The position numbers and the translations under genes were made by a program. DNA of 22,782 bases from a virus, in the IMG/VR virus record IMGVR_UViG_3300025141_000822, positions 1-22,782 of that record. One strand, written 5' to 3'. Of the stretch, positions 3,001-22,233 are shown piece by piece. Position 1 is the stretch's first letter, and the number at the start of each line of letters is the position of its first letter. The notes below the pieces were generated by a model. It saw nothing but the letters and a program-made list of their open reading frames with translations, had not been told where the DNA came from and ran no database searches.

Positions 3001-6000
3001 TCTTCGCCAAGAACAGACGGTGATTTAGGTAATGATACTAATATTGGAACATTGTATAATTGGAATATAAATCACGCATACGCCGCCTACTTATCTACGG
3101 TTTATCCTGCTTCTCCCGCAGGATATAAATTTAAGCAACAACATGATTCTGATTATTATAACTTAATGCCTACTAAAGATTCTACTTTAGATATATTATC
3201 AAATCTACACCATCCACAAGGAATCTTTAGTCGTGGATATGTTGTTGTATCTTATGAAAGTGAACTTTCACTTGTAGGAAAAACAGATAGAGATGGAATT
3301 ACGGCTACGGGGGATTGGTTATCTCTTGTAGGAAAAACAGACGCAGGGGTAGCCGCATCTACGGCTATTCAGTTCGCAGGAACAACACGTTGGGATGAAC
3401 GTATACATGATTCAAATCGTTTTACTGCTCCTGCACACGCAGGACCTAATGTTGAAGCATTAATAGCAACAGGAACTACATTACCCACAATAGGAGATTT
3501 TAATGACCCGCAAGCCTCCTTTGGCTCAACATATGTTTTACACTCAACAATTACTGATGATGTGAATCTACATAACGCCGAACCATGTTTTGCAAAAACA
3601 GGTGATTTATTCTTTGATTTAGATAAAAGTGTCGGCTCATTTTTCCTTGAGCAAGATACTGATGTTCAAAGAAATATTGCTGTGGATTCAGGGTCAGCAA
3701 CTGCTCTTGGAAATAGATACGGTACGGGAGCAGACGCAAACACCTATTGGGTTGGCGATGTTAATGGTTATGATACTCATCGCTATTCACCCGCCAAGAA
3801 TTTCTCTATTGAACATATAGTTTGGAAGAGAATGGACGGCGGAAATCTAAGTATGCCCGCTATAAACGCAAGAGGTCTTGGTGCTGTACCGTGGGTTACA
3901 AGAGTAAATGGTGTTAATTCATACGTTTCAGGAGAAAAGTTACTCGGAAACTGTAGGTTTAGTTTTGAGACAACAAATTCCGCTATGTACCCTATAATTC
4001 AATCACAAGAACTTTCACATCCACAAATAGCCGCAAGGCATCCTGACGAATTAAAAAATATTCTTGCTATACCAAACGAAGAAGAACAATTTTTAGATAT
4101 AATGGTTGAAGATGATACAGGACAAATACATACCATAAACGGTGGTTCGCCGTTTGGAACCGTTATTAGGGCTTTCAGAACTCTAAGTAATCGGACATCA
4201 GAAGGTCTTGCTCCTTCAATAACAAATAGTAATATTGAGCCTAATTTAAAAATTAGATTACCTGACCCTGATTCAATACCCGGAAATATATTAGTTAGAA
4301 GTGGATTTGATAGAATACAGGCTTATCAAACCGAAACAATGGGTAGTGGGGGTATGTTAGGTCCCGGTGTTAATAGTGCAAATCTAAAACATTTATTTGA
4401 TAATTCTATCTCTAATCCAAGAATTGGACCAACGTTTGATAATCATAATTGGGAACACATAAGTCAGAAATCTTCAGGTGTGGCTTTTCCCGACAGTTCA
4501 AAAGAAAATTGGGATGAAACAACCGGCAATAATCCATTACAAACTTCTTATGAACTTCACGATAGAACATTATTTTTCCATATTACAAAGTCAGGACACA
4601 CTCATACTCATAAATATCCTGTATCATACTCACACGCAAACGGTGTAGTAAATAATGATTTAACGGGTGTAAGTTATGTTGGAACTACTCTTACTGTTAA
4701 TGCCGCTGTAAATACATCTGTTTTCACAACAGGATTTGGTGAGCAAGAGAAGGCTACGCTCGCAGGAGACCCTGCGGGACGAAGATTTTTGAGATTGTAT
4801 GACCCTACAACTGATAGAGGTGGGGTAGCATCATACACGGCAATTGCAGGTTCAACATTTACGGGTTGTGTGGGTGATGCAGAATTTGATGAATTAGTTT
4901 CAGGTTCTATAACTTCTCTAAAAGTTGTACCCTCATACTATATTCCTGCGGGTAGTACAAGATTCTACGCAAGCAGAAGATTAAGAGACCACGCAGAAGT
5001 AAGCGGAGCAAGCCCTGATATGGCACAAGTGAATTATTTTAATGGTGTATCGGCGTCAGACCCTGCCTATACTGTTTATAGTAAACCTGTTTTAACACCG
5101 TTACCAATTCCAAGAATGGGTCATCATTTCATTACCCCAACTATGGCTATGCTTCCCGGTCATTGGGCTCATCCCGCATATCAGGGATTATATGATTTAC
5201 ATTACGCTTGTCGTTCCTCAACGGTTCCAAATAAAGAAAGTAATTTATTAAGTTTAGAATCAAAAATAGACCATAAAGCCGCTATACCTGCCTCAACCAC
5301 ACAACAGTTTAACACTTTATCTCCACCTGTAACCTTCGGTGCTTTAACAGCGACACCTTCGGGACCTAGTGATGTTCACGGCGGGGCGTTTACTTTAATG
5401 TTTGAATCTAAAATAAGAGCAGACGGTTACGGAATACTTGCATCAAAAGGTCAAGCGGGTGTTATAAATTCAAAAGGAGGACATAGTATTGTATTAGAAG
5501 GAGCGGCTAATTATACATTAAATAATCACTTCCCCGACCCATCAGAAGTCGGAGCATACCAAATTGTTATACAACCGAATATACATTCATCGCAGTTCTT
5601 AGGTTTTCACGCTAACGGAGCCGCAACTGCATTACCCGATGGCTCCGTGAAAGAATTAACATCGCAACAAGTTGCCCTCGTTATAGGTATAAAGACTAAT
5701 TATAATATTAAAGGCGGATTAACACTTGTACTTGCAGAAGCAGTAATGGCAGATACAAGAGGATGTGAAGTTTTCATTAATGAAGTAATGTTAGACCATG
5801 ACCCTGATTTTGGTTCTCAATTCACTAATATTCCTCCCTTACTTCTCTTCAATCCATTGGGATTACAGGGGACTGAATCTCCATCTTTTACAAGAAAATC
5901 GTTCCCATATCATCCGGGAATGTTTAATCATTCAACACCTGAATTTACAATAAATATCCCGTGGTGGAGCATATTACACACAACAGCACCTGATGATACA

Positions 6001-12450: not shown

Positions 12451-12475
12451 GCATAAATGTTGTATCGTTTAAATA

Positions 12476-12494
12476 CCCTCAAAAAACAAAAGGG
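12476..12494 (-). terminator. Candidate T-rich terminator of the minus-strand operon
   Basis: Read on the minus strand, this is CCCT, then a T-rich run (TTTTGTTTTTTG), then AGGG. It lies 25-43 bases past the last minus-strand stop codon. Archaeal termination commonly occurs at T tracts, so this is a reasonable terminator. The CCCT/AGGG pair is only 4 bp and may be irrelevant. Confidence 0.4.
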
Positions 12495-12500
12495 TAAACT

Positions 12501-12517
12501 CAATGACGCTTTAAATA
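12501..12517 (-). promoter_or_regulatory. Conserved TATA-containing 17-base element, copy 1
   Basis: Minus strand TATTTAAAGCGTCATTG. It shares 18 consecutive bases (12500-12517) with the copy at 16882-16899 and the consensus TATTTAAASCGWCAWTG with two further copies. It begins immediately after the TGGTGA stop of the last minus-strand gene, with no gene downstream on that strand. If it is a minus-strand promoter, it would make RNA antisense to the tail fibre 3' end. The orientation is not certain, because TTTAAATA also reads as a TATA box on the plus strand. Confidence 0.45.
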
Positions 12518-15330: not shown

Positions 15331-16725
15331 CTATTTACCTTTCAACTTAATGTAATTTCTTCCGCCATCTTTTGTAATTTTAAACAAAGTAAGGGCGTAG
15401 TCTTTGTAATGTCTATTAGCGGTAGGCATAGAAACACCTGTATTGGCTATGTAACGTTTCTTAACTGTTGTCTGCCTACGCCAATGGGGACCTCTATCAC
15501 TTAAATCAAATTCTGAACATTCATTATATGCCTTCAACCAACGCTCTTTGTAATGGGTCTTTTCTGCTTCTTTCATACCTACCTCAACTTCATCTTCAAG
15601 CCATGAGATAAGATTAGTGAAAAGGTCGTAAAGAATTTCATGAGCCATATCCACGTATACAGGTTTTACTTCCCAAGACTCGTCAAGCATAGCAATATGA
15701 GTAGAAAAGATACCAAGATAATTCTCTATCCCCGGTAAGAAAGATGCCACTACCTCCGAAAGCGAAGGGTCCATGAGTTTTACAAGTTCAAAATAATCAT
15801 CTTTTGCTTGCTGTAACGCAACTCTAAAATCATCATCATAGGTAAAACATTCCCACCAATTTTCTTGAACCGTCACTTCTTGTTCTTCTCTTGTCATAGA
15901 GTCCCAATCTATGAAAGAAGTTTCAGAAAGGTCAAGTAATCTATTCCTAAGTCTCTTGTCAAGATTTCTGAAATAATCATAAATATCATTCTTACTCATG
16001 GTAACTTTCTTGGGCTTTTTACCGAAGGTATCTAAACGCATAGTGCTAACATTTTGTCGTTTGTCCATATCCCATTCACCCCAATACAACAACACTCTTT
16101 GGAAGATACCTTTCGTGAGAACATACTCTTTAACACCCTTCGGGGGAAACGTAGTTATCCATAAAGAAACCAATGATTCATTTTCCACGACACCGTTTTT
16201 CATGTGCTTTACAATTTTATTATTTTCTGTTCCTATGGGGTTACATGCTGATTGTAAGTAAAGAACAGTCTCTTGTGAATGCTTACCGGGCATAAGAATA
16301 ATAGAACCCTCATCAAAATTTATACATTTTCTACCTGAAAGTAAACCATCAACAACTTCTGTTGTGGGCGGCTCTCCCTTCTCTCCCTTTATCTCTATGA
16401 TAGAACCCGCTAAACCGGCATCTGTTCCTGATGCATACATAGTAGCAGGAATATCAATTTCTTTTAAAACGTCTCCAATAAAATTCCAAGCAATAGATTT
16501 GCCTGAACGTGAGGGTTGAATCCAAAACACATGAACTCTAAGGTCAAGATGTGAGTCACCCGTTGGTAAACGAATATAGGGAACTGTTACCTGTCCTTGT
16601 ATGAAGAAGAATGACAAAAGACCCGGTATGGGATTTGACATAGATGTATTCTCAAAATTTTCAAGGTATGCTCTCAATAGAGGGAACTTCCTCACCGCTT
16701 CATATTTTTCGTAAACTTTAACCAT
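15331..16725 (-). CDS. P-loop ATPase, probable replicative helicase (464 aa)
   Basis: Walker A is WIQPSRSGKS (Lys at about residue 76 from the chosen start); the usual first Gly is replaced. Walker B is CINFDEGS. A sensor-like strand is SLVSLWITTFP, and GIFQRVLLYW carries a candidate arginine finger. The last 40 residues (GVSMPTANRHYKDYALTLF) look like a winged helix, so the order ATPase then wHTH resembles DUF3987-like or MCM-like viral helicases. Family assignment is tentative. An ATG at 16746 lies only a few bases after the TATTTAAA box (16760-16753), too close to be downstream of its transcription start. The ATG at 16725 (MVKVYEKYEA), 35 bases from the box, is the best start, probably with a very short or absent leader. 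Confidence 0.7.
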   Translation of the reverse strand: MVKVYEKYEAVRKFPLLRAYLENFENTSMSNPIPGLLSFFFIQGQVTVPYIRLPTGDSHLDLRVHVFWIQPSRSGKSIAWNFIGDVLKEIDIPATMYASGTDAGLAGSIIEIKGEKGEPPTTEVVDGLLSGRKCINFDEGSIILMPGKHSQETVLYLQSACNPIGTENNKIVKHMKNGVVENESLVSLWITTFPPKGVKEYVLTKGIFQRVLLYWGEWDMDKRQNVSTMRLDTFGKKPKKVTMSKNDIYDYFRNLDKRLRNRLLDLSETSFIDWDSMTREEQEVTVQENWWECFTYDDDFRVALQQAKDDYFELVKLMDPSLSEVVASFLPGIENYLGIFSTHIAMLDESWEVKPVYVDMAHEILYDLFTNLISWLEDEVEVGMKEAEKTHYKERWLKAYNECSEFDLSDRGPHWRRQTTVKKRYIANTGVSMPTANRHYKDYALTLFKITKDGGRNYIKLKGK

Positions 16726-16736
16726 CTTTCTCATTC

Positions 16737-16766
16737 TCCAATCCATTGTCGGTTTAAATACTAAAT
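16737..16766. repeat. 30-base repeat, copy A (matches 22204-22233)
   Basis: Thirty consecutive bases are identical to 22204-22233. The repeat contains the 17-base TATA element plus about 7 bases on each side, ending in the TGGATTGG stretch (minus strand). It lies at the 5' end of the ATPase gene. Confidence 0.9.
16744..16760 (-). promoter_or_regulatory. Conserved TATA-containing element, copy 2; promoter of the helicase operon
   Basis: Minus strand TATTTAAACCGACAATG. An archaeal TATA box places the transcription start about 25 bases downstream, here near 16729, which meets the ATG at 16725. It would serve the ATPase, exonuclease, small protein, chaperonin and zinc-ribbon genes. The spacing to the start (35 bases) nearly equals that of the copy at 22211-22227 (34 bases to the GTG at 22193). 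Confidence 0.6.
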
Positions 16767-16813
16767 TAGTTTTAGAGACAATTTCGTAATAGTCATACGG
16801 GAGGCCACCACTA

Positions 16814-16830
16814 TATCAAATTATTTGATA
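16814..16830. repeat. 17-base palindrome (TATCAAAT T ATTTGATA)
   Basis: Eight-base arms are perfectly symmetrical around one central base. It is suited to binding a dimeric repressor or initiator, or to forming a hairpin in RNA. Confidence 0.7.
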
Positions 16831-16835
16831 GGACA

Positions 16836-16849
16836 CATGATAAATCATG
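16836..16849. repeat. 14-base inverted repeat (CATGAT AA ATCATG)
   Basis: Six-base arms are separated by two bases, five bases after the previous palindrome. The core ATGATAAA recurs directly at 16854-16861. Confidence 0.6.
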
Positions 16850-16882
16850 AGAAATGATAAAAGTCCTACCCCCCTAAAACTT

Positions 16883-16899
16883 CAATGACGCTTTAAATA
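16883..16899 (-). promoter_or_regulatory. Conserved TATA-containing element, copy 3
   Basis: Minus strand TATTTAAAGCGTCATTG, sharing 18 bases with copy 1 at 12500-12517. It starts five bases after the ERCC4 nuclease stop. As a minus-strand promoter its transcript would begin near 16868, inside the inverted-repeat segment, and run into the helicase gene. Confidence 0.5.
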
Positions 16900-16904
16900 A
16901 GATG

Positions 16905-17597
16905 TCACTTTTTGCGCTCAAAACGCACTTCTTCTTCTGATGTTAGTATATTAATGATGCGAGAACGTAATGTAGGCCCAAGACCCTTGATTAATTTTAA
17001 TGAATCAGGATGACACATCTCTTCTATAGAGCCACATTTCTCAAGTATTCTTTCAGCCATATCCGCCCCAATGCCGGGTATAGTTAGCAGAATGTCAAGA
17101 CGTGCATCATTACTCGCTACTCTCCTAAGTGATTGAGCCCCATGACGTGATGCGGGCTTCTGTAACTTGTCGTGTAACTTCGTGATGAACTGTGCGGCTT
17201 CGCTTACATTACCTGTATAGAAAACTTGACATTCAAAATCACACATGACCCGGGCTATAGTACCCGTTAGTTCATTTTGTACTTTTGAATATGTAACTCT
17301 TCTACCGTTTCTTTTAGCCATAGCAACGTACTTATCAATACCGCCGTGTATAACAAGAAAGAATCTTTCATAGTTAGCATCCATGTTATCAAGTTGTCTC
17401 CACAGATGCCCGCTATGGCTTGATTGAAATAAGTCGTTAATACTCTTCGCTTCAACCAATGCGCCTCCTAATAGATAGTCACCAACAAGTAATGGCTTTC
17501 TTATTACTCTAATCCCCATCCTCTTCGCTTTCCTTTCTATGGATTCGCAAAGACTACCTCTTTCATTAGAGTCTATGATAAGTTCTTGTTTACTCAT
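16905..17597 (-). CDS. ERCC4/XPF-type nuclease with helix-hairpin-helix tail (230 aa)
   Basis: N-terminal ERCC4 nuclease domain: LIIDSNERG, then LLVGDYLLGGALVEAKSINDL, which holds the metal-site Asp of GDY and the E-x-K-x3-D form of the family's ERKxxxD motif. The C-terminus has two helix-hairpin-helix units: LLTIPGIGADMAERIL (about 172-187) and LIKGLGPTLRSRII (about 204-217). This is the Mus81/XPF/Hef nuclease arrangement without the helicase part. Such enzymes cut 3' flaps, forks and branched DNA next to duplex. The chosen start, ATG 17597 (MSKQEL), has GGTGAG just upstream; starts at 17609 or 17600 are possible. It overlaps the winged-helix gene by 8 bases. The likely role is resolving replication or recombination intermediates. 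Confidence 0.88.
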   Translation of the reverse strand: MSKQELIIDSNERGSLCESIERKAKRMGIRVIRKPLLVGDYLLGGALVEAKSINDLFQSSHSGHLWRQLDNMDANYERFFLVIHGGIDKYVAMAKRNGRRVTYSKVQNELTGTIARVMCDFECQVFYTGNVSEAAQFITKLHDKLQKPASRHGAQSLRRVASNDARLDILLTIPGIGADMAERILEKCGSIEEMCHPDSLKLIKGLGPTLRSRIINILTSEEEVRFERKK

Positions 17598-17874
17598 CAT
17601 ACTCACCACGAAGTTTCCATCTTGAAGTTTTGTAAGTGTTAGACATACCTTCCGTTACACCCTCGTTATCTACAAAAACAAAGTCTTTAAATTTAGATAG
17701 GATATTACTTAATTCATTTCGGGTCGGAGAGTTTGTGTATGGACGGTTTGTGTTTAATTGTTTTTGAGATAATAAACCTTCATAAATTTCTGTATGCGTT
17801 TTAGGTTTATTATTAATTTCATACAGACGTTTAATACGCTCTATCGTGCGATTCTTATTATTACTTTTAGCCAT
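17590..17874 (-). CDS. Winged-helix-like small protein A (94 aa)
   Basis: The ATG at 17874 overlaps the previous stop (TGATG); a TTG one codon earlier is less likely. The protein is basic. The segment SPTRNELSNILSKFKDFVFV looks like a recognition helix plus turn, followed by a wing-like hairpin and ending KTSRWKLRGEYDE. It shares this pattern with the next gene upstream (ARNHLGGLLSKMDCLEKLG, ending MKYKLKDEF), so the two appear to be diverged duplicates. The probable role is DNA binding; regulator or replication accessory cannot be separated. Confidence 0.65.
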   Translation of the reverse strand: MAKSNNKNRTIERIKRLYEINNKPKTHTEIYEGLLSQKQLNTNRPYTNSPTRNELSNILSKFKDFVFVDNEGVTEGMSNTYKTSRWKLRGEYDE

Positions 17875-18125
17875 CAAAATTCATCCTTTAATTTGTATTT
17901 CATATTTCTTCTACAGCGAGATTTCTGATGCCCAAGTTTTTCTAAACAATCCATTTTTGATAAAAGACCCCCCAAATGATTTCTCGCCGGAACGTTCTTG
18001 GGTGCATGTTCCCACCACCAATCATGAAGGTCATGTAAATCAAAACTTTCTACTGATGATGCAAACTCCAAAATTTTTTTCCTTATCCTGCTATTGGGGT
18101 CATTTATGGGTTTTTTATTTGTCAT
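17874..18125 (-). CDS. Winged-helix-like small protein B (83 aa)
   Basis: The start ATG overlaps the primase stop (ATGA) with AGGTGATG five bases upstream, a strong coupled ribosome site. The sequence has a basic N-terminus (RIRKKILEFA), an aromatic/His middle (LHDLHDWWWEHAP), then ARNHLGGLLSKMDCLEKLG and basic residues, consistent with a winged helix. It is paralogous in pattern to the 94-aa protein that follows. Position directly after primase suggests a replication accessory or auto-regulator. Confidence 0.65.
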   Translation of the reverse strand: MTNKKPINDPNSRIRKKILEFASSVESFDLHDLHDWWWEHAPKNVPARNHLGGLLSKMDCLEKLGHQKSRCRRNMKYKLKDEF

Positions 18126-20496: not shown

Positions 20497-20660
20497 GCTT
20501 CCACCTCCACGCCATAGGCTTCTAAGATGACCCGCACAGTCCGTAATACCTCTTCCTTCGCTTGTGTAGTAGGAACGTAACCTGTGCTTTGGCCCTTCAT
20601 ACCATCCAAGTATTCAACTAACGCCTTCGTCATTTTCTCGTAATCTCTCTTCAACATCAT
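20493..20660 (-). CDS. Small unknown protein (55 aa)
   Basis: An uninterrupted 56-codon frame with an ATGA overlap at its start (the 34-aa gene stop) and a 4-base overlap at its end with the Cas4-like gene GTG. An upstream ATG (20660) and the next ATG (20657) are both possible starts. The sequence is helical: MMLKRDYEKMTKALVEYLDG, a Ser/Thr/Pro turn, then a helix TQAKEEVLRTVRVILEAYGV. Its coupling at both ends argues that it is real. Function is unknown; it may be a small partner protein. Confidence 0.65.
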   Translation of the reverse strand: MMLKRDYEKMTKALVEYLDGMKGQSTGYVPTTQAKEEVLRTVRVILEAYGVEVEA

Positions 20661-20761
20661 ACTCCACTCACTATGTAGCCGGTAGCCGTCACAATAACAT
20701 CGCAGTTACCGCAGTAAGAGCCGAACAATATGTGTTTGCATACAGGGCAATCTTTTGTCAT
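20657..20761 (-). CDS. Micro zinc-ribbon protein (34 aa)
   Basis: The 35-codon frame begins at an ATGA overlap with the 54-aa gene stop and ends at an ATGA overlap with the 55-aa gene. Four Cys form two knuckles, CPVC and CGNC (5/8 and 17/20), an exact small zinc-ribbon spacing, followed by a Val/Thr/Gly-rich tail. The perfect placement in a chain of overlapping genes and the paired CxxC motifs make chance unlikely. Confidence 0.6.
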   Translation of the reverse strand: MTKDCPVCKHILFGSYCGNCDVIVTATGYIVSGV

Positions 20762-20789
20762 TCGCTCACCTCATCAAGTAGGGCTTCAA
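20758..20789. repeat. 32-base direct repeat, copy 1
   Basis: Identical to 20919-20950, 161 bases away. It codes the shared C-terminus (EALLDEVSE) and stop of the two duplicated small genes. Confidence 0.9.
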
Positions 20790-20922
20790 TGTTATCAGCC
20801 GCCGAAGAATACGGCAAGGCTATTCCCATGATTCTGTTTGGGTCGCCCTTGATATATGCAAGGCGATAATTTGCGATTAATTCACGCAATTTCGCCTCAA
20901 GTAATTTCATCTTTATACTCAT
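20758..20922 (-). CDS. Short duplicate of the neighbouring 121-aa protein (54 aa)
   Basis: Start ATG (20922) overlaps the stop of the preceding 121-aa gene (ATGA). Its LEAKLRELIANYR and AADNIEALLDEVSE match LEAKLRDLMISWK and AANILEALLDEVSE at the C-terminus of that gene. The last 32 bases, coding the end and stop, are identical in both. It is therefore a tandem duplication of the C-terminal half, diverged in the middle (IKGDPNRIMGIALPYSS). It is predicted helical with no known motif. Confidence 0.75.
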   Translation of the reverse strand: MSIKMKLLEAKLRELIANYRLAYIKGDPNRIMGIALPYSSAADNIEALLDEVSE

Positions 20923-21585: not shown

Positions 21586-21804
21586 TCATATATTCCCCCT
21601 GTATTTTCTCGGTTCTCCTTCCAATCCTATGCTCTCCATAGTTACGGGAACGGGCTCAAACATCTGCTTGTCAAAGTCCGTAAGCCTTGTTTGGTTCTCG
21701 CTAATAAACTCAAAACCAAACTCTTCTAAGGCCGTCTGTCTAAATTGTAGACCACCGCATTGACACAGATGATGAGTGCATTCTTTTTTCCTAAACCAAT
21801 TCAT
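21586..21804 (-). CDS. Unknown small protein with a Cys cluster (72 aa)
   Basis: Strong AGGAGGGG eight bases before the ATG, which overlaps the previous stop (ATGA). Residues 8-18 (ECTHHLCQCGG) hold three Cys and two His, possibly a metal site, followed by a basic/aromatic to acidic body (FGFEFISENQTRL, FEPVPVTME). It is too short for a full zinc finger of a known class. Confidence 0.7.
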   Translation of the reverse strand: MNWFRKKECTHHLCQCGGLQFRQTALEEFGFEFISENQTRLTDFDKQMFEPVPVTMESIGLEGEPRKYRGNI

Positions 21805-22193
21805 TTCTTACCCCTCCTGTGTAACTTTCTCGCCGCCTTTCGTTGGCTAATGCTTCCTTCAAAACGATGGTCTGTTCTTGATGAAGGTTCAACGCCTGTG
21901 TTTCTAACACCGCCTTGACCTTCTGAATTGTTCCTTATGGTATCTAAAACCCTTTCGTCACGTTTGCCCATCCACTCTTTTCGCATCGCTTCCTCGCAAT
22001 CCGCAATTTTCTTCTTCGTGGCGTCTATACGTCTAATCAAAACTGTTTTACCTCTTTTTAGTTCTTTACCATAGTATGCAATATCTTCATCCTTTTTATC
22101 CTGTAGTGCTTTCTCTCTTACCACAAGTTCGGCTTGCCATCTTGCCATGCGAATCTTTAATCTATCTCGTTTTGTTTTATCCAAAATCTTCAC
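21801..22193 (-). CDS. Basic coiled-coil-like protein (130 aa)
   Basis: Two starts are possible. TTG 22208 sits inside the 30-base repeat, just after the TATA box, too early for a transcript from it. GTG 22193 (MKILDKTKRD) is 34 bases from the box and is chosen; the transcript would be nearly leaderless. The sequence is highly charged, with heptad-like helices (RARWQAELVVREKALQDKKD, then RRIDATKKKIADCEEAMRKE) and a very basic tail (SQRKAARKLHRRGKK) fit for nucleic acid. Function unknown. It heads the operon that starts after PolB. Confidence 0.65.
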   Translation of the reverse strand: MKILDKTKRDRLKIRMARWQAELVVREKALQDKKDEDIAYYGKELKRGKTVLIRRIDATKKKIADCEEAMRKEWMGKRDERVLDTIRNNSEGQGGVRNTGVEPSSRTDHRFEGSISQRKAARKLHRRGKK

Positions 22194-22203
22194 TTCCTTA
22201 TTT

Positions 22204-22233
22204 TCCAATCCATTGTCGGTTTAAATACTAAAT
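22204..22233. repeat. 30-base repeat, copy B (matches 16737-16766)
   Basis: Identical over thirty bases to the copy before the helicase gene. It begins just inside the polymerase stop codon and ends in the start region of the coiled-coil gene. Confidence 0.9.
22211..22227 (-). promoter_or_regulatory. Conserved TATA-containing element, copy 4; promoter of the small-gene operon
   Basis: Minus strand TATTTAAACCGACAATG, six bases after the PolB stop. The expected transcription start is near 22196, against the GTG at 22193. Confidence 0.6.

Follow-up and report, generated by a model that had tools for sequence, protein, structure and literature searches.

In the halovirus HF2 (Haloferacalesvirus) intergenic repeats have been identified as promoters by reporter assays, some of these elements are embedded in direct or inverted repeats, and the TATA box begins at −26 from the measured transcription starts (PMC8707807). 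Inverted repeats beside some promoter cores of SIRV2 and SMV2 have been proposed to be repressor sites (PMC11065993). For the magroviruses (Magrovirales, e.g. Aoguangviridae) gene sets and an opposed arrangement of gene blocks have been described (PMC10768690, PMC10160649), while promoters, intergenic regions, palindromes and replication origins find no mention in PMC10160649.

Here we analysed an intergenic interval within a stretch of 22,782 bases from an IMG/VR virus record (the window). By its ORF layout a rightward block of structural-looking genes and a leftward block converge at ~12.45 kb. By Pfam, PHROG and NCBIfam searches the leftward block encodes an ERCC4 nuclease, a PD-(D/E)XK nuclease, a PolB-like fragment, primase-like and exonuclease-like proteins and a group II chaperonin; it also contains the gene of a putative ATPase. 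The ERCC4 nuclease, the archaeal primase-like protein, the PolB-like fragment, the group II chaperonin and the opposed replication and structural blocks are shared with magroviruses (PMC10768690, PMC10160649), and since gene set and block arrangement agree with the published descriptions, the window is, by its gene content, a fragment of a magrovirus-like virus of marine archaea. More than 100 IMG/VR contigs match it, while searches of named phages with the DNA of the region or with the ATPase protein gave no match. The nearest relatives are L004 and L005 (ERCC4 81-82%, ATPase 66-67% identical); scans with the ATPase alignment, the chaperonin or sister-clade proteins found none nearer. The largest gap of the leftward block, 422 nt without a convincing gene (20497-20918), precedes the gene of the PD-(D/E)XK nuclease.

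The studied interval sits between the genes of the ERCC4-type nuclease and the putative ATPase, both of which are read leftward. An earlier note had described it as a gene-free segment between two promoter elements in which nested complementary arms enclose two tight palindromes. The features of the locus are as follows.

16905-17609, minus strand: ERCC4/XPF-type nuclease gene, upstream neighbour (Pfam ERCC4, 5.7e-19; NCBIfam Hef/Xpf partial matches)
16883-16899, minus strand: P1, TATTTAAAGCGTCATTG, predicted archaeal TATA-box promoter directly after the ERCC4 stop codon
16768-16881: spacer between P1 and P2, the studied interval
16768-16775 and 16874-16881: outer 8-bp arms AGTTTTAG and CTAAAACT, at the ends of the spacer
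16799-16804 and 16869-16874: arms GGGAGG and CCCCCC, which require a G-T pair and overlap the outer arm by one base
16831-16834 and 16863-16866: arms GGAC and GTCC
16814-16830: tight palindrome TATCAAATTATTTGATA, 8-bp arms, 1-nt spacer, a putative operator-like site
16836-16849: tight palindrome CATGATAAATCATG, 6-bp arms, 2-nt spacer, likewise a putative operator-like site
16726-16766, minus strand: P2, AATTTAGTATTTAAACCGACAATGGATTGGAGAATGAGAAA, predicted promoter of the ATPase operon, TATA box at 16753-16760
15331-16725, minus strand: putative ATPase/helicase-like gene with the Walker-A-like motif WIQPSRSGKS
22193-22233, minus strand: second copy of P2, upstream of ORF 21801-22208, 93% identical over 41 nt
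12496-12517, minus strand: second copy of P1, at the convergent junction, beyond the final leftward gene

The segment is indeed gene-free over 158 nt by the ORF limits. The true start of the ATPase gene is most likely the ATG at 16725, approximately M8 of the listed ORF, rather than 16746, since the proteins of the relatives begin at about this residue in the protein alignment; the gap then measures ~179 nt, and the TATA box of P2 comes to lie 28-35 nt upstream of the revised start. We call the 15331-16725 product a putative ATPase solely for its Walker-A-like motif, as it has no match in Pfam, PHROG or NCBIfam. Searched alone against viral contigs, the protein found no relative, its alignment gave no match in prokaryote genomes, and its predicted structure (pLDDT 45) is too poor for use.

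P1 and P2 flank the interval as the earlier note had proposed, and both appear to be genuine promoter elements directed leftward. Of the 39 TATWTAAA sites in the window and three relatives, 33 fall outside coding sequence (pooled P ~4e-20); 12 sites outside genes belong to G002, the contig that carries L004, and 12 to G004, which carries L018. Most sites of these two contigs, 10 of 14 in G002 and 11 of 13 in G004, are closely followed by a gene start on their own strand, mostly at a distance of 29-45 nt. The elements of both contigs carry a common tail, CCAACAGTAGAATT or GCAACAGTAGAA, within a longer common element, AATTTTATATTTAAACCAACAGTAGAATT or GTTGATATATAAAGCAACAGTAGAA. P1 and P2 belong to this virus-wide promoter class. 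The P1 core TATWTAAA[GC]C[AG]NCAT recurs at the same position in L004, L018, L040, L042, L044 and L059, and with an altered TATA in L047, L048 and L065; P1 adjoins or overlaps the ERCC4 stop codon in several diverged relatives. Across all viral contigs the exact P1 sequence has two unrelated chance matches only, and no bacterial promoters or terminators were found at the region. Applying the −26 rule of HF2, transcription is predicted to start near 16873 from P1 and near 16734 from P2.

The spacing of the two promoters is similarly kept: L004 has 131 nt and L005 135 nt, compared with 139 nt for the window and 142 nt for L018, a more distant relative. Among 53 representative gaps two TATA elements are present in 10 (a few of them doubtful) and one in 31; the gap between the ERCC4 and ATPase genes is merely 20-60 nt in most relatives, and many do with a single promoter and lack a dyad. 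What the sequence establishes is the class of the promoters, their orientation and the conservation of their place and spacing.

The locus resembles HF2 in having repeated intergenic AT-rich TATA-type elements upstream of gene blocks in an archaeal tailed virus, but sequence and lineage differ, and here two tandem promoters predicted from sequence lie ~139 bp apart. Near-identical TATA promoters common to many genes of one virus are likewise a property of the early-gene promoters of SIRV2 and SMV2, whose inverted repeats, however, overlap the promoter core, whereas the palindromes described here lie between two promoters. Judged by its conservation, the tandem promoter region is real, new in sequence and ordinary in kind. 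For uncultured viruses of marine archaea it defines a promoter as TATWTAAA followed by [CG]CAACA, and it locates the region that controls the replication operon of these viruses.

Taken as a whole, the interval probably serves this magrovirus-like virus as the tandem promoter/operator region that controls its leftward replication/chaperonin operon. Transcription of the operon would begin at either promoter, at P1 where the upstream gene ends or at P2 where the ATPase gene starts, with the archaeal factors TBP and TFB recruited to both. A dimeric regulator that adjusts the activity of P1, of P2 or of both may bind the intervening palindromes and TCA half-sites, and the region would act as DNA and not as an RNA element. 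The P1-P2 spacer can be aligned among the window, L005 (62% identity) and L004 (44%), and the alignment retains CTCA-N6-[CA]TCA and TTGATAT. The TCA half-sites, repeated 10 and 12 bp apart and common to the two relatives, and the tight palindromes, whose centres are ~21 bp apart, have spacings that may fit protein binding along one face of the DNA. The earlier note had likened the segment, as DNA, to an initiator or repressor region, and the repressor half of this proposal is compatible with the two-fold symmetric sites adjoining the promoters (16814-16830 and 16836-16849, P 0.008-0.045), while its initiator or origin half found no support. No regulator was identified. One small protein of the same operon gave an all-helical model of low confidence (pLDDT 63). 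Two small operon proteins of 95 and 83 amino acids (17590-18125, minus strand), which gave no match in L004, L005 or two sister-clade genomes, are possible virus-specific regulators.

Several observations speak against the operator function: the sequence of the tight palindromes is not conserved in L004 or L005, the two relatives that can be aligned, their enrichment is modest (P 0.01-0.05), and a single promoter with no accompanying dyad suffices in many relatives. The first two fit an alternative that we regard as rather unlikely but worth serious attention, namely that the palindromes arose by chance in an AT-rich promoter spacer and lack a function, so that P1 and P2 alone matter; moreover, the palindromes were picked by a reader scanning 22 kb. 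The earlier note had itself cautioned that AT-rich palindromes arise by chance. As for the outer arms, when the 158-nt gap is shuffled with its dinucleotides preserved, 20% of the resulting sequences contain at least one pair of perfect 8-bp arms, so that the proposed closing stem calls for no explanation. The nested arms and both tight palindromes are all present as described, but CCCCCC overlaps an outer arm and the outer arms are at chance level. For the tight palindromes, a chance origin is countered by a weak enrichment (P 0.008-0.045): arms of 8 bp around loops of up to 6 nt arise in 1.8% of dinucleotide shuffles, at least four dyads are counted in 0.8%, and with looser loops of up to 8 nt the proportion for tight palindromes is 4.5% (P 0.045). 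At most about 1% of contig windows equal the gap in tight dyads, and different dyads recur at the gap in several clades, which also argues against chance.

In a sister clade an imperfect palindrome of ~100 bp, TTGTCCGTTGTCTTGTCTATAC ... CGGACAATCAAGACAAC, recurs three times per ~106-kb genome, with one of these copies between P1 and P2 of the homologous gap; copies are located at the following positions.

L181, 14684-14790: palindrome copy
L180, 256-357: palindrome copy
L184, 16966-17058: palindrome copy
L189, 11091-11198: palindrome copy
L186, 8352-8444: palindrome copy
L191, 4076-4177: palindrome copy

The palindrome is strongly conserved, with alifold z scores of -5 to -8 on both strands (P < 1/300), and is more unusual than the interval itself. 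A covariance model built on it detects the three copies of each of two ~106-kb genomes, all lying within intergenic DNA or bordering it, while its best score in the gap of the window is 6 bits, which is at chance level. The occurrence at several sites and an equal strength on either strand favour a DNA site, and a tendency towards G-U over A-C exceptions leaves an RNA role for this palindrome open. Crossing arms in pseudoknot order were considered for the sister clade and rejected, as alifold gave a nested hairpin.

A third clade has a TGACC-N(4-8)-GGTCA dyad that follows a TATA-like stretch and stands just before the start codon of the ATPase gene, with two-sided changes in some members (carriers L078, L162, L164, L166, L168, L173, L006, L067, L210, L219, L353 and L363); it is possibly an operator or a start-site hairpin. 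Differing dyads across clades are expected if the site of a regulator changes quickly, while chance or turnover would allow them too. We consider it a long shot that the gap carries one fast-changing but functionally kept dyad, such that the palindromes of the window, the sister-clade palindrome, the ATATCTCA array of L005 and TGACC/GGTCA would form a single family of virus-specific control or initiation sites co-evolving with a viral DNA-binding protein.

As RNA, the earlier note had suggested, the segment could fold into a structure closed by the 8-bp stem. In its present form this alternative holds that P1 makes a structured leader or small RNA from the leftward strand, spanning the interval and acting in cis on the operon or in trans, and we consider it improbable. 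The exact interval, whose ends were chosen for their arms, folds with z -2.0 on the plus strand (7 of 200 shuffles) and z -2.5 on the minus strand (4 of 200), the latter being in favour of an RNA; several nearby protein-coding stretches of the window fold with an equal or lower z. Folded as single-stranded DNA, the gap in its full length does not differ from its shuffles (z -0.4). The spacers of L004 and L005, the nearest relatives, fold no better than their own shuffles (z -0.5 and -1.0), which counts against a conserved structure.

Covariation, which the note had proposed as a check, was analysed in the alignment of the window with these two relatives, and the stems of the note showed none. 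At two-sided changes the pair is kept in 5 of 11 cases versus 42% expected, at one-sided changes in 8 of 35 versus 30%, and 71 of 500 shuffles attain their score; the closing arms, themselves at chance level, are neither kept nor compensated. The minimum-energy fold of the minus strand gives a slightly better, marginal result, with 11 of 17 doubly changed pairs kept (P ~0.046) and no excess at one-sided changes (10 of 33), and alifold scores the three-sequence alignment above column shuffles (P 0.01-0.02). The good scores of this fold are, however, inflated because the structure was derived from one of the three aligned sequences.

Support for an RNA also comes from the sister clade, where a strongly conserved long hairpin occupies the same place and its exceptions are mostly G-U and not A-C; yet this hairpin is equally strong on the opposite strand and recurs intergenically, which fits a DNA site at least equally well. 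No Rfam 15 family reached the gathering score in the interval, with one chance-level match nearby; the tRNA search of the region gave none, and neither terminators nor matches to the sister-clade covariance model were found. Finally, with the start of P1 predicted near 16873, the 5′ closing arm (16874-16881, read leftward) would lie outside the P1 transcript.

That the interval is all or part of a replication origin, as an AT-rich initiator-binding site adjoining the replication genes, is very improbable: it does lie inside the replication gene block, the same gap holds the ATATCTCA array in L005, and the sister clade has its three-copy long palindrome at this place, but in the skew check that the note had proposed the 4-fold-site skew keeps its sign across the homologous gap in two ~106-kb relatives (G004 and G005) and tracks gene orientation, the overall skew of the window switches near the 12.45 kb convergent junction and not at the interval, the gap of the window has no enriched repeat that would form an iteron family, and the 20-60 nt gap of most relatives is too short for such an origin. 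Both the RNA and the origin reading of the gap depend on arms explicable by chance.

Upstream of its P1, L005 has an iteron-like array (5699-5802) in which ATATCTCA / TGAGATAT repeats occur in either orientation; 6 of the 13 TATCTCA copies in 29 kb are clustered inside a stretch of ~330 nt in this gap. At the convergent junction of the window, two leftward TATA elements are found at 12475-12517 (minus strand), one of which equals P1 over 18 nt. With no leftward gene downstream, these elements would, if active, drive antisense RNA of the structural genes.
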